From assembly GCA_947498985.1 (NCBI GenBank), contig CANMMF010000001.1, positions 1 through 64,000 of the forward strand: DNA of 64,000 nt. Reading direction: 5' to 3'. The DNA comes from an uncultured Paracoccaceae bacterium. Its GTDB lineage: Bacteria > Pseudomonadota > Alphaproteobacteria > Rhodobacterales > Rhodobacteraceae. A program made the translations under genes and the position numbers. The notes below the pieces were generated by a model. That model saw only the letters and a program-made list of their open reading frames with translations, was not told the origin of the DNA and made no database searches. Positions 10,933 through 30,930 of the stretch are shown in pieces (position 1 is the first letter of the stretch; every line of letters begins with the position of its first letter).

Positions 10933-11964
10933 CTACGCTGACTCGCGCATAATCAGCCGGGCCGGGAACAGCGTCTCGATCCGCTCGCCCAGCCGTCCGC
11001 CGCTCTCCACCACGCGAAACAGGGTATCGACAGCATTGTCCGACACCGCAGCGTAATCATGCGCCGCCGTCGTCAGCGATGGGCAGGTGAAGCGCGAAAA
11101 CGGGTGATCGTCATGCGACGCCACGCGCAGGCGCGCCTCGGGTTTGCGGCCAACCTCCACACCCATTTCATAACACGCGGACAGCAGACCGATCGCGAGA
11201 CGGTCATTGCTGCACAAAAGCGTGTTTGTCGGCAGCGCGTCCTCGTGCAGCACCTTCAGCCCGCCTTGCCGCCCGATTTCCTCGAATCCCCAGCCGGTCC
11301 CGTCGATCTTGATCACATGCGGCTCGAAGCCAAGACGGTCCATCATCGTCAGATACGCCTTGCGGCGCTTGTTGGCGTTGGGATTGGCGGGGTGGCGCAT
11401 CTCGAAAAAGCACGGCGGCTCCCCGGTGCGCGTGAGATATTCGACGGTTTGCGAGACGAAGCTGTGATTGTCGGAGCCGATGAATGCCTCGCCCAACCCT
11501 TCGAGATTGCTGTCAAAAAGCACCGTCGGCACGTCCCGGCAAAACGCCTCGATTGCCGATTTGTCCGACAGCCGGCCCAGCGGCGCAAAGAGAACACCCG
11601 CCGGTTTCAGCGACCGCAGACCGTCGAGGATGTCGTTCTCCAGCGCCTGTTCGCCATGGGCGCTGAACAGCGTCGGCGAAAACCCCGCATCGATGCAGCG
11701 CCGTTCCAGAACGCGCACGATTTCGGCAAAGAACGGATCGGCGAGATAGGGCACGATGATGCCGATATTCTTCGTCAGTTTCCGGTTCTGGTTCATCGCG
11801 AAGATATTGGGGCGGTAATCGTGCCGCTCCAGCGCCGCTTCGATGCGCTGGCGGGTCGAGGCGCGCACGCTTTCGGGATCGTGGAAATATTTGGACACCG
11901 TCGGCCGCGAAATGCCGCTGACCGCCGCAAACTCCTCCATGTTCTTGATCTTGCTGCCAGACAT
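10933..11964 (-). CDS. LacI-family transcriptional regulator
   Basis: N-terminal [48 protein letters not shown] plus periplasmic-binding-like domain; upstream of the polyol operon. Confidence 0.93.
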
Positions 11965-12190
11965 TGGCCTGCGCGTCCCTTTCGGATCGGTCCGGTCGAC
12001 GGCCCCGCGCCGTCGTTTTTTACATTCTTCACAGATTTCTTTCGCGCGCAAATATTCTTTCGGCGCGGCGGGAAAGAAAAACTTCACATCTCTGTCACGC
12101 TTAACAATTGGGCAGAGGATGGGTTCGCGGGCAAGACCACCCAAAACCCGGCCCTGTCGCAAGGCGCTCTCGGCACGCGGAGGGCCCGGC

Positions 12191-12204
12191 TTGATCTGTG
12201 TCAA
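12191..12204. promoter_or_regulatory. FNR/FnrL-like box
   Basis: TTGATctgtGTCAA, one mismatch to TTGAT-N4-ATCAA, upstream of bchE. Confidence 0.55.
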
Positions 12205-12216
12205 CATAACTTAACA
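12199..12216. promoter_or_regulatory. PpsR/CrtJ-type site 1 (TGT-N12-ACA)
   Basis: TGTcaacataacttaACA, 18 bp, upstream of bchE. Confidence 0.65.
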
Positions 12217-12223
12217 GCTAAAG

Positions 12224-12241
12224 TGTCAGTATTTTCTGACA
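12224..12241. promoter_or_regulatory. PpsR/CrtJ-type site 2 (TGT-N12-ACA)
   Basis: TGTCAgtattttcTGACA, with 5-bp symmetric ends, 17 bp upstream of the bchE ATG. Confidence 0.8.
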
Positions 12242-12258
12242 CCGAGTCGGAGGGACCC

Positions 12259-13953
12259 ATGCGCATCTTGTTCGTTCATCCAAACTACCGCTCCGGCGGT
12301 GCGGAGATCGCCGGGACATGGCCGCCCGCCTGGGTTGCCTATCTGACCGGCCATCTGCGGCAATCGGGCTTTGACGACATCCACTTCATCGACGCGATGA
12401 CCGATGCGCTTTCGGATGCGGAGCTTGCCCGGAAAATGGAGGCGCTGAAACCGGACGTGGTCGGGGTCACCGCCATCACCCCGTCGATTTACCGCGCCGA
12501 AGACGTGCTCAAGGTCGCCCGCGATGTCGTACCGGAGGCGGTGCGCGTGATGGGCGGGGTGCACGCGACCTTCATGTACAAGCAGGTGCTGACCGAAGCG
12601 CCCTGGATCGACGTGATTGTCCGCGGCGAGGGCGAAGAGATCTGCACCGAGCTGATGCTGGCCATCGAGGACGGTCGCTTCCCCGCCGAACGGCACGGCA
12701 TCAAGGGTCTGGCCTTCCGCGACGGCGGCAGGATCGTGGCCACGCAGGCCGCCTCCACCGTCAAGGACCTCAGCAAGATCAAGCCCGACTGGTCGGTGCT
12801 CGAATGGTCGAAATACATCTACATTCCGCTTGGCACCCGAGTCGCCATCCCGAACCTCGCCCGCGGCTGTCCGTTCACCTGTTCGTTCTGCAGCCAGTGG
12901 AAATTCTGGCGCGACTACCGGGTGCGCGACCCCGGGGATGTGGTGGATGAGATCGAGGATCTGGTCGACAATCACGGCGTCGGCTTTTTCATTCTCGCCG
13001 ACGAGGAACCCACCATCAACAAGAAGAAATTCGTGGCCTTCTGTCAGGAGCTGATTAACCGCGGCCTGCCCAAACGCGTGAAATGGGGCATCAACACCCG
13101 GGTCACCGACATCTACCGCGACCGCGATCTGCTGAAGTTTTACCGCAAGGCGGGGCTGGTGCATGTCTCGCTCGGCACCGAAGCCGCGGCGCAGATGAAG
13201 CTCGATGTCTTCAACAAGGAAACCAGGGTCGAAGAGAACAAGACCGCGATCCGCCTGCTGCGCGAGGCCGATATCCTGGTCGAGGCGCAGTTCATCGTCG
13301 GGCTCGACAATGAGACCCCGGAGACGCTGGAAGAGACCTACCGCATGGCCTGGGACTGGCAGCCGGATCTGGCCAACTGGTCGATGTACACGCCCTGGCC
13401 GTTCACCCCGCTCTTTCAGGAACTGAAGGACCAGGTCGAGATCTACGATTTCTCCAAGTACAATTTCGTCACGCCGATCATGAAGCCCGCCGCCATGGAA
13501 CGCGGCGAATTGCTTGATGGCGTGATGAACAATTACCGGCGCTTCTACAGCCGCAAGGCGCTTTTCCACTATCCTTGGCGTGGCACCGGGTTCCGGCGCC
13601 GCTACCTGCTGGGCTGTCTCTACGCGTTTCTCAAAGCCGGTTTCCAGAGGACGTTCTACGATCTCGGCAAGGCCGGATACTGGGGGCCGCAGACCCGGAA
13701 TACGGTCGATTTCCATTTCGACGAGACCCGCCAGATCGCCGAAGCGCAGATGGCCGATTGGGAGGCGTCCGCCGACAAGGCTGCCAAAGCCGCAGAGCGG
13801 CGCGAGGCGCTGCGCCAGCAGGGCAAGGAGCGCGCGGCGCGGCGCAATCAGGACTTCAGAATGCCCAACGGCGCCACTTTGCCCGCCCGCGGACGGGATG
13901 CCGCGACGCTCAAGGCCTGCGGCGGGGGCGACCAGCAACTGAACGATGTCTGA
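12259..13953 (+). CDS. bchE: Mg-protoporphyrin IX monomethyl ester oxidative cyclase, anaerobic (B12-binding radical SAM)
   Basis: N-terminal B12-binding-like region ([25 protein letters not shown]), radical [11 protein letters not shown] (CxxxCxxC), followed by bchJ; PpsR sites upstream. Confidence 0.93.
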
Positions 13954-14545
13954 GACCGGCAATCCCGCCTCAGGGCTGATCGGGCCGAACGCCATTTTGC
14001 AGGTGCTGCCGGTAATCGAGCGCTTTGGCGGTCCGGAGCGTTGTTCGGGGATGCTCGCCCGAGCGGGCCTCCGGCACATCCCGCATGGCGACCGGATGAT
14101 CCCCGAAACCGATGCCGCCCGCCTGCACCGCCAGTTGCGCCGCGAAGAGCCCGACATGGCGCCAGCCCTGTCCCACGAGGCGGGCATCGGCACGGCGAAC
14201 TACATCCTGCGTCACCGGATACCGCGCCCCGCGCAATGGCTGCTCCGGGCCCTGCCCCCGGCACCCGCCGCCCGGCTTTTGTCCAGGGCGATCGCGCAAC
14301 ACGCCTGGACCTTCGTCGGATCCGGCAGGCTGGTCGTTGCGGATGCGTGGAGCTTCGAGATCGAAGCCAACCCGCTGATCGCCGGGGAAACAAGCGATGC
14401 CTGCCTGTGCCACTGGCATGCGGGTGTCTTTGCGCGGCTCTACCAGGTGCTGGTCGCGCAGGGCACCTCCTGCACGGAGACGTGCTGCGGCGCGCAACAC
14501 CCCGGCAACCGGTGCCGCTTCGAGTTACGCCGGGTGCGTCTTTAG
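13946..14545 (+). CDS. bchJ: Bacteriochlorophyll 4-vinyl reductase (V4R-domain) BchJ
   Basis: [32 protein letters not shown]...; 4VR-like C-terminus [19 protein letters not shown]; 8-nt overlap with bchE. Confidence 0.88.
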
Positions 14546-24273: not shown

Positions 24274-24667
24274 TCGCGGGCCGGTCTCGCGCGGGGTGTG
24301 GCGTCTGAGCGCCGCCCTTTGACCTGCGCGCACCCTTTTGCAGGCAGGCCAACGCAGCGCGACGCGCCGTCGCCTCGGCGAGAGTGCCGCGCATGGTGGA
24401 TCTGCGGCGCCGGTACCTGAACCCGCGCCCCCGACATCCCAGCACACAGATGATTCGGCGAAAAACCGCGCAAATCGGGCGCGGTTGTTTCGTGTTCTCA
24501 AACAAAGCCCGATCCGGCACCGGATTAATCCCGCAATTGCATATGAATCGTGGTTAATTTTGACTTTGGCGGCGGATTCCCGCTTAACTGTCACCAGCGA
24601 AAACAACTGTCCTTTCGTCGTTGTTGGTGGGGGCCAACACGGATGTGACCAACCGTATGGTGTTCAC

Positions 24668-25459
24668 ATGAGTAGCCTCCGTCCGAGTATCAAAGCCGAT
24701 ACGACATCCGTTTCCCTCCAGATCTCGCAGCACAGCGCGCCGATTGGCGATGGTGCGCCGCGCCGGTCCGTGTCGCTCATGCGCAAGTACGAAGCGTCCG
24801 CGCTGCTGCCCGACCTTTCGGTGTCGTTTAAGCAGCATGTCGCACCGGCCACCGCCATTTTCGAGGAATGCGCCACCGCCTTTGCCCGCGGCACGCTTGT
24901 ACCCACGGTGCGCGGGCCGGTTGCCATCGAGGATCTGATGCCCGGCGACTATGTCGAGACGACGGACGGCTCCGAGCCGGTGACCTGGATCGGCTCGACC
25001 ACCTATGTGCCGGGCCTCAGCGACGACACGACCACGCTGACCAATCTCACGCGGATCACCTCCGACGCCTACGGCATCGGCCGCCCGGGCATGGACATTC
25101 TGGTGGGCCCCGCCGCCCGGCTGGTGGTCCGCCACGCCAAGCTCGAAAAGCTCATCGGTCAGGAATCGGTGCTGGCGCCTGTGGCCGATTACACCGATGG
25201 CGACCGGCTGTTGCAGATCTCTCCCGCAGGTCCGGTGCAGCTTTACCATTTCATGGTGCAAAGGCACGCCACCGTCACGATCGGCGGGATCGAGCTTGAG
25301 ACCTATCATCCGGGAAAGGCGCTCAACCAGCTCAACGGACAGAACCTGCGCGCGCTCTTCCTGTCGATGTTTCCCAACATCGAGCGGCTTGAGGATTTCG
25401 GAACGGTCAACCTGAGCCGCACCAGTCGCGAGGTCATCGACAGCCTGATCGACACCTGA
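24668..25459 (+). CDS. Hint-domain (hedgehog/intein N-terminal-like) protein
   Basis: ECATAFARGTLVPTVRGPVAIEDLMPGDYVETTDGSEPVTWIGSTTY matches Hint-domain pattern common in Roseobacters. Confidence 0.8.
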   Translation: MSSLRPSIKADTTSVSLQISQHSAPIGDGAPRRSVSLMRKYEASALLPDLSVSFKQHVAPATAIFEECATAFARGTLVPTVRGPVAIEDLMPGDYVETTDGSEPVTWIGSTTYVPGLSDDTTTLTNLTRITSDAYGIGRPGMDILVGPAARLVVRHAKLEKLIGQESVLAPVADYTDGDRLLQISPAGPVQLYHFMVQRHATVTIGGIELETYHPGKALNQLNGQNLRALFLSMFPNIERLEDFGTVNLSRTSREVIDSLIDT

Positions 25460-28851: not shown

Positions 28852-30930
28852 ATGTCCGCGATCCCCGCCAGCCACACCCTGCCGGAAGAAGATCAGCTCT
28901 TCCGCCTTCTGCGCCAGCTCGACACGGCGCCGGAGGCGTCGCAGCGCGCCACCGCCGAGGCGCTGAACATCTCGCTCGGTCGGCTCAACGCCTATCTGCG
29001 CGCGGCATCAGAGGCGGGCCTCGTCAAGATCACCAACCGGACCGGTCCCGACCGCAGGCAGCGCTTTGCCTATGCGCTGACGCTGCGCGGCGCGACCGAA
29101 AAAACCCGTCTCACCGACCGCTTTCTGGCCCGCAAACGGGCCGAATACGACGCCCTGCACGCCGAACTGACCGGCGCTGCAAGCGGCCTCGCCCCCATCA
29201 AGTTGAGGAACATTCCCATGCAGAACAATCTGGCCCCCATCCCGGAGCTTTTCGTGTCCTACGAAAGCGCCCAGAAACTCAAGGTCGAGGCGGGGGAGCT
29301 GACCTCTCACGACCTCACACCGCGCCAGATCTGCGATCTGGAACTGCTGATGAACGGCGGCTTCAACCCGCTGAAGGGGTTCCTGTCGGAGGCCGATTAC
29401 AACGGTGTGGTCGAGGAAATGCGGCTGGCCGACGGCACGCTCTGGCCGATGCCGATCACGCTGGATGTGAAAGAAGGCTTTGCCGAAGGTGTCGAGATCG
29501 GTCAGGACATCGCCCTGCGCGACCAGGAGGGCGTGATCCTCGCCACCATGACCGTCACCGACAAGTGGACACCCAACAAGGCGCGCGAGGCCGAGAAGGT
29601 CTTTGGCGCCGATGACGACGCGCATCCGGCCGTCAACTACCTGCACAACCAGGCGGGCAACGTCTATCTGGGCGGGCCGGTGACCGGCATCCAGCAGCCC
29701 GTGCATTACGATTTCCGCGGTCGCCGCGACACGCCGAACGAGCTGCGCGCCTATTTCCGCAAGCTTGGCTGGCGCAAGGTTGTGGCCTTCCAGACCCGCA
29801 ACCCGCTGCACCGCGCGCATCAGGAGCTGACCTTCCGCGCCGCGCGCGAGGCCGAGGCCAACCTGCTCATCCACCCCATTGTCGGCCTGACCAAACCCGG
29901 CGATGTCGATCACTTCACCCGCGTGCGCTGCTACGAGGCGGTGCTCGACAAGTACCCCGCCTCCACCACCACCATGTCGCTGCTCAATCTGGCGATGCGC
30001 ATGGCGGGTCCGCGAGAGGCGGTCTGGCACGGGCTTATCCGCGCCAACCACGGCTGCACGCATTTCATCGTCGGCCGCGACCACGCGGGCCCCGGCAAGA
30101 ACTCCGCCGGAGAGGATTTCTACGGACCCTATGATGCGCAGGATCTGTTCCGCGAATACCAGTCCGAGATCGGCTGCGAAATGGTCGACTTCAAGCACAT
30201 GGTCTATGTGCAGGAGCGCGCGCAATACGAGCCCAATGACGAGATTGCCGACAAGGACAATGTCACGATTCTGAACATCTCGGGCACCGAGCTGCGCCGC
30301 CGTCTGCGCGAAGGGCTCGAGATCCCCGAATGGTTCTCGTTCCCCGAAGTGGTGCGCGAGCTGCGCCGCACCTCGCCGCCGCGCTCCGAGCAGGGCTTTA
30401 CCGTATTCTTCACCGGCTTTTCGGGCTCCGGCAAGTCGACCATCGCCAACGCGCTGATGGTCAAGCTGATGGAGATGGGCGGCCGTCCCGTGACGCTTCT
30501 GGATGGCGATATCGTGCGCAAAAACCTCAGCTCCGAGCTTGGGTTCTCGAAAGAGCACCGCGACCTCAACATCCGCCGCATCGGCTATGTCGCCTCCGAG
30601 ATCACCAAGAATGCGGGCATCGCGATCTGCGCGCCCATCGCGCCTTATGCCACCACCCGCCGTGCGGTGCGCGAGGATATCGAGGCGTTTGGCGCCTTCA
30701 TCGAAGTGCATGTGGCGACCTCGATCGAAGAATGCGAACGCCGCGACCGCAAGGGGCTCTACAAGCTCGCGCGCGAAGGCAAGATCAAGGAATTCACAGG
30801 GATTTCAGACCCCTATGATGTTCCCGTCGATCCCGAACTGCGTGTCGAGACCGAGGGCACGGATGTCGACAATTGCGCACATCAGGTGATCCTGAAGCTT
30901 GAATCGATGGGTCTCATCGCCGCGCAATAG
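28852..30930 (+). CDS. Fusion: EPS-associated MarR-type winged helix + sulfate adenylyltransferase + adenylylsulfate kinase
   Basis: N-term LPEEDQLFRLLRQLDTAPEASQRATAEALNISLGRLNAYLRAASEAGLVKI...TEKTRLTDRFLARKRAEYDALHAEL resembles MarR_EPS; then ATP sulfurylase (QTRNPLHRAHQELTFRA) and APS kinase (GFSGSGKSTIANAL). Possible internal start at 29218 (GAGGAAC then ATG). Confidence 0.9.
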   Translation: MSAIPASHTLPEEDQLFRLLRQLDTAPEASQRATAEALNISLGRLNAYLRAASEAGLVKITNRTGPDRRQRFAYALTLRGATEKTRLTDRFLARKRAEYDALHAELTGAASGLAPIKLRNIPMQNNLAPIPELFVSYESAQKLKVEAGELTSHDLTPRQICDLELLMNGGFNPLKGFLSEADYNGVVEEMRLADGTLWPMPITLDVKEGFAEGVEIGQDIALRDQEGVILATMTVTDKWTPNKAREAEKVFGADDDAHPAVNYLHNQAGNVYLGGPVTGIQQPVHYDFRGRRDTPNELRAYFRKLGWRKVVAFQTRNPLHRAHQELTFRAAREAEANLLIHPIVGLTKPGDVDHFTRVRCYEAVLDKYPASTTTMSLLNLAMRMAGPREAVWHGLIRANHGCTHFIVGRDHAGPGKNSAGEDFYGPYDAQDLFREYQSEIGCEMVDFKHMVYVQERAQYEPNDEIADKDNVTILNISGTELRRRLREGLEIPEWFSFPEVVRELRRTSPPRSEQGFTVFFTGFSGSGKSTIANALMVKLMEMGGRPVTLLDGDIVRKNLSSELGFSKEHRDLNIRRIGYVASEITKNAGIAICAPIAPYATTRRAVREDIEAFGAFIEVHVATSIEECERRDRKGLYKLAREGKIKEFTGISDPYDVPVDPELRVETEGTDVDNCAHQVILKLESMGLIAAQ

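Follow-up and report, generated by a model that had tools for sequence, protein, structure and literature searches.

Predicted FnrL and tandem PpsR sites overlap upstream of bchE in a Paracoccaceae bacterium and in many of its relatives

Upstream of bchE in an uncultured Paracoccaceae bacterium, a predicted binding site for the oxygen regulator FnrL shares bases with a predicted operator of the light/redox regulator PpsR, which raises the question of whether the two proteins compete for the same nucleotides and whether such an overlap is a coincidence or a part of the promoter. The gene lies in the 64,000-nucleotide stretch that was analysed (the window), at one end of a contig of a 5.29 Mb draft genome, and is followed by bchJ; its product is the oxygen-independent (anaerobic) chlorophyll-ring cyclase. 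The initial annotation had described three motifs upstream of the bchE ATG at 12259, with 7 bp (12217-12223) between the two PpsR sites and six bases shared between the first of them and the FNR box, and all of these elements were recovered at exactly the positions given. The features of the locus are as follows:

10933-11964, minus strand: divergent gene for a LacI-family regulator (Pfam LacI and Peripla_BP_3)
12191-12204, plus strand: FNR-type box TTGATctgtGTCAA, a perfect consensus match and predicted FnrL activator site
12199-12216, plus strand: predicted PpsR operator 1 (PpsR1) TGTCAACATAACTTAACA, an exact TGT-N12-ACA that starts at FNR box +8
12199-12204, plus strand: the six shared bases TGTCAA, right half of the FNR box and left half of PpsR1
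12224-12241, plus strand: predicted PpsR operator 2 (PpsR2) TGTCAGTATTTTCTGACA, TGTCA-N8-TGACA, starting at FNR box +33
12227-12232, plus strand: candidate -10 hexamer CAGTAT inside PpsR2, with A at position 2 and T at position 6
12239 (about +/-2), plus strand: predicted transcription start, deduced from the spacing of class II FNR promoters together with the -10 inside PpsR2
12249-12253, plus strand: Shine-Dalgarno sequence GGAGG, read from the sequence
12259-13953, plus strand: bchE, ATG at 12259 (TIGR02026, 823 bits, cut-off 481)
13946-14545, plus strand: bchJ, second gene of the operon (TIGR02019, 161 bits; Pfam V4R)

The control proposed for this promoter presupposes that both regulators are encoded, and their absence from the genome had been named in the initial annotation as a finding that would speak against it; both are present, with 462 bits each. 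PpsR, encoded at C1:456417 (TIGR02040, cut-off 275), matches the protein of the solved PpsR structure (4hh2) over a long part of its sequence, and FnrL (NF045989, cut-off 300) has its N-terminal cysteines visible. The gene for the aerobic cyclase, acsF, is located at C1:441633, and bchEJ lies on the same contig ~430 kb from this ppsR/acsF region. Two BLUF-domain proteins are also encoded, one at G000:C1:70870-71139, ~7 kb to the right of the window, and one at G000:C3:503054.

The divergent lacI-type gene is an unlikely target of the sites, since ~226 bp separate its start (11964) from the FNR box, and since it is to bchE that the register of the sites is fixed. Between this gene and the bchE promoter stands a terminator-like hairpin (CGACGGC-CCCGC-GCCGTCG followed by TTTTTT, 11997-12015, plus strand). 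Elsewhere in the window, a protein with a Hint_2 domain is encoded at 24338-25459 (plus strand), and a frame for ATP sulfurylase plus APS kinase at 28852-30930 (plus strand) carries an N-terminal winged helix-turn-helix match (PF13412), which could reflect a fusion or a start-codon effect.

A single TGT-N12-ACA means little, because the bare pattern occurs 15 times in the window where 4.5 occurrences are expected. The extended palindrome TGTNA-N8-TNACA, by contrast, is found in the window only as PpsR1 and PpsR2, and at 34 sites genome-wide (5.29 Mb) against 5 for the reversed control. Likewise, TTGATN4GTCAA is matched perfectly in the window by the bchE FNR box alone, which belongs to 31 sites matching TTGAYN4RTCAA in the whole genome (control, 2). 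Under local base composition, the number of FNR boxes with an overlapping PpsR site expected in the 294-bp intergenic region is ~1e-6, and that of all three sites in the observed register ~2e-10. A chance origin of the module is rejected on these expected counts and on the conserved register, and of the two it is the conservation in relatives that weighs more.

This conservation was assessed in bchE upstream regions gathered from 80 named genomes plus further relatives, 137 of them distinct. A perfect FNR box (TTGAYN4RTCAA) is present in 125 of the 137, usually ~67 bp and mostly 62-76 bp before the bchE ATG. Measured from this box, an exact PpsR site is found at +8, i.e. with the six-base overlap, in 62/125 and at +32 to +34 in 82/125, while no other offset has more than 4 cases (n=125). 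Allowing one mismatch adds 22 sites at +8 and 18 at +33, whereas the offsets that have a match at all average 1.6 each, and conservation drops to background upstream of the FNR box. Lack of conservation had been a further finding held to count against the module; instead, the motifs are strongly conserved in relatives and keep a fixed register. At least one exact PpsR site accompanies the FNR box in 118/125 regions, with both sites in 26, only the overlapping site in 36 and only the downstream site in 56. The organism of the window groups with Roseovarius tolerans, Yoonia, Loktanella and Lutimaribacter in having both, and in Cereibacter, Rhodobacter, Gemmobacter, Tabrizicola and Phaeovulum the downstream site mostly occurs alone. 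That PpsR1 and PpsR2 substitute for each other is only suggestive: with kinship ignored, the association reaches p=2e-8 for exact matches and is weak, p=0.045, when one mismatch is allowed.

Outside the Rhodobacteraceae, records from Jiella (L059), a Beijerinckiaceae MAG (L060) and Aquibium (L069) contain a bchE that is 81-82% identical and has the same promoter module, which suggests that the operon was transferred along with its promoter. Six Sphingomonadales bchE upstream regions (L083, L086, L088, L089, L103 and L106) are devoid of the FNR and PpsR motifs and share TTTGATyCA-N2-CGCAAAG as well as a CTCCCyCAC...GGGGGA inverted repeat that overlaps the likely ribosome site. The full strict module was found in none of 240 class-wide genomes, few of which may be phototrophs, apart from the window's own.

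Within the family, the composite FNR/PpsR pattern has 79 matches in 397 genomes, compared with 0 for its reversed control. Of these matches, 44 are located at bchE, so that the composite is seen there in 43/79 bchE-bearing genomes, a count which includes G301 with a bchE remnant; in that genome (L230, G301:C26, about 21227) an intact composite operator precedes the broken N-terminal piece of bchE. The remaining 35/79 lie elsewhere, several of those inspected being FNR boxes beside polyphosphate kinase 2 genes where the ACA looks incidental, and the composite is not upheld as a general FnrL/PpsR device. The arrangement seen divergent to these polyphosphate kinase 2-like genes, identified by eye (L213, L218, L221, L229, L231 and also L212), consists of TTGAY-N3-TGTCAA, A-rich sequence and TNACA, and suggests that FnrL may control PPK2 genes. 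Composites occur occasionally at bchC and hemA: one is found at a bchC-like gene (L220) and two near hemA-like genes (L227 and L225), all identified by eye; L220 and L227 also have a second PpsR site after the composite, with roughly the same spacing.

How the sites might work together depends on where transcription starts. PpsR2 is asymmetric across the relatives, in that position 5 is A in 80/82 and position 9 is T in 62/82, whereas A occupies the position that mirrors 9 in just 30/82 (p=4e-5). Positions 4-9 may thereby resemble a -10 hexamer (XAnnnT). Reading CAGTAT (12227-12232) as this -10 places the start near 12239 and the centre of the FNR box at -41.5, which is the class II position. 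A consensus promoter scan detected no canonical sigma-70 site at the bchE promoter, which is consistent with an activator-dependent promoter but is not proof of one.

On this basis, we consider it probable that the bchEJ core promoter belongs to class II and depends on FnrL, and that two PpsR operators lie over it in tandem, at which active PpsR would block both FnrL and RNA polymerase. PpsR2 would span about -15 to +3 and cover the -10 and the start, and PpsR1 would span about -40 to -23, covering the -35 region together with six bases of the FnrL box; because the operators cover the core and the FnrL box, bound PpsR would shut out activator and polymerase together. When oxygen falls, FnrL would become active and PpsR would be relieved, so that FnrL could bind and recruit polymerase, and the anaerobic cyclase would be produced only after the fall in oxygen, by an AND-NOT logic. 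The sites and their likely readers, FnrL and PpsR, are well supported; the start site, the binding of the two proteins, their direct competition and the AND-NOT logic we infer from the sequence.

Mutual exclusion of FnrL and PpsR, which the initial annotation had traced to the shared bases, is plausible from the arrangement of the sites. It need not be due to these six bases, because the putative -10 and start lie under PpsR2, and because R. sphaeroides and many other relatives retain both regulators although they are without the overlap. The overlap would act as a second lock, because PpsR bound at PpsR2 alone should already block polymerase. Since PpsR and FnrL are oppositely regulated by oxygen, exclusivity would matter mainly when both are active, for instance at low oxygen with PpsR under light control, and the second lock would be most useful when FnrL is active and PpsR is still on, e.g. 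at low oxygen in the light.

One half of PpsR1 is readily obtained, because the GTCAA of the FNR box with a preceding T makes TGTCA. The two regulators could act independently, with PpsR repressing only via PpsR2 at the -10 and start, and with PpsR1 a weak site, or one with no function, that forms readily because the FNR GTCAA provides half of it; FNR boxes with TGTCAA do exist at other genes, and R. sphaeroides is among the 56/125 relatives with an exact PpsR2 and no exact PpsR1. However, the far half of PpsR1, ACA, is in phase in 70/125, and none of the other shifts between -8 and +11 has it in more than 7/125; PpsR1 is also kept on its own, because 36/125 have an exact PpsR1 without an exact PpsR2. 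Furthermore, the base at +8 tracks PpsR1, although it belongs to the FNR spacer, which is not read by FNR: T occupies it in 63/70 genomes that have the far ACA and in 27/55 that do not. A Fisher test of TG against ACA gives p=5.5e-7, with relatedness ignored. We regard independent action as unlikely. The ACA state changed at least 21 times on the BchE tree, and the tree-corrected comparison has only 7 well-supported pairs, which agree in direction (~3 vs 0.6) but are not significant and underpowered, so that proof of base-sharing by phylogenetically independent pairs is not upheld. A dual constraint on the shared bases is likely, but not proven.

The FNR-type box may also have another reader. 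It could be recognised mainly by a different Crp/Fnr-family protein, FixK-like or CrpK-like, with PpsR acting as proposed: the genome encodes a FixK-like protein (L032) that lacks the FnrL cysteines and has the same ETVSR recognition motif, and the bases by which FnrL activates R. sphaeroides bchE serve for activation by CrpK as well (PMC4263372). Direct activation by FnrL via the homologous site has, however, been published for that species and is stronger than that by CrpK (PMC4263372), and we consider a main role for such a protein quite improbable. It is hardly credible that PpsR additionally activates under anaerobic conditions, or remains on the DNA together with PpaA, the overlap tuning co-occupancy instead of exclusion: CrtJ ChIP enrichment at R. 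capsulatus bchE is similar aerobically and photosynthetically (PMC5362033), AerR isoforms alter CrtJ action at R. capsulatus bchEJGP (PMC6199135, PMC5362033), and a PpaA/AerR-like gene, identified by eye, lies directly upstream of ppsR in the window's genome, but a PpsR1 that shares the FnrL half-site and a PpsR2 over the candidate -10 are geometries typical of repression, and the CrtJ sites at R. capsulatus bchEJGP are described as distant (PMC6199135), not tandem as in the window. Because CrtJ stays at bchE photosynthetically in R. capsulatus, it is no general rule that the repressor simply leaves, and a plain off/on exchange should be viewed with caution.

For the preferred reading, a FnrL-dependent promoter under tandem PpsR operators, the overlap is no coincidence but a conserved switch assembled from known elements, because about half of the photosynthetic relatives examined have it in precisely this form. 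It is also dispensable, because many relatives with both regulators lack it. A wider proposal, which we advance only tentatively, is that TTGAY-N3-TGTCAA-N9-ACA is an evolved promoter part of the Rhodobacteraceae where FnrL (oxygen) and PpsR (light/redox) compete for the same bases, that it has been repeatedly gained and lost, trading places with the downstream PpsR site, and that it would make low oxygen and relief from PpsR strictly required for the anaerobic cyclase. The locus offers a compact, sequence-defined case in which the control of chlorophyll synthesis by oxygen and light may hinge on competition for the same bases. Sister lineages, some with the overlap, some with the downstream site and some with both, provide a natural series for testing the effect of the overlap. 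This is of particular relevance for aerobic phototrophs that carry both the aerobic (acsF) and the anaerobic (bchE) cyclase.

A literature search retrieved no earlier description of a FnrL/PpsR overlap, with most older subscription papers beyond its reach. The individual parts have counterparts in known systems. At bchC of Rhodobacter capsulatus, two TGT-N12-ACA sites about 8 bp apart are bound cooperatively by CrtJ, compared with 7 bp between the sites in the window, and the accessible sections of that source describe no overlapping FnrL box (PMC6199135). In the bchF-aerR intergenic region of the same species, a photosynthesis control region receives input from both FnrL and CrtJ, as predicted for FnrL and PpsR in the window, but at a different gene and, as far as the accessible text goes, with no shared-base geometry described (PMC4634722). 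In Dinoroseobacter shibae the bchF promoter has two PpsR motifs, one over the -10 and start and one over the -35, as predicted for the window, and their mutation derepresses the gene; the available part of this report likewise describes no overlap with a FnrL box (PMC10890935).

The closest counterpart is bchEJ of Rhodobacter (Cereibacter) sphaeroides. FnrL binds there upstream of bchEJGP at TTGACatgcATCAA, as seen by ChIP (PMC2908626), and mutation of the T of TCAA at -57 causes about 90% loss of FnrL-induced activity, while global expression data for bchE in the fnrL mutant are ambiguous (PMC4263372). The PpsR ChIP peak at bchEJ contains TGTCAACTGAAATGGACACA, and PpsR binding and repression were established by ChIP and expression (PMC4344238). 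Both sequences are present in the R. sphaeroides genome examined here (L012), with the PpsR site at +33 and the mutated T at -57, so that FnrL control of bchE, which the initial annotation had stated for Rhodobacter, is documented through the homologous base at the same position. The register of the FnrL box and the downstream PpsR site (+33) and the distance to the ATG are identical to those of the window; the right half of the FnrL box is ATCAA instead of GTCAA, a second reported PpsR site lies ~485 bp further upstream in L012, and no PpsR site covers the FnrL box. Because L012 has both sites in the same register, the module of the window corresponds to the R. sphaeroides promoter with one PpsR site added over the FnrL box.
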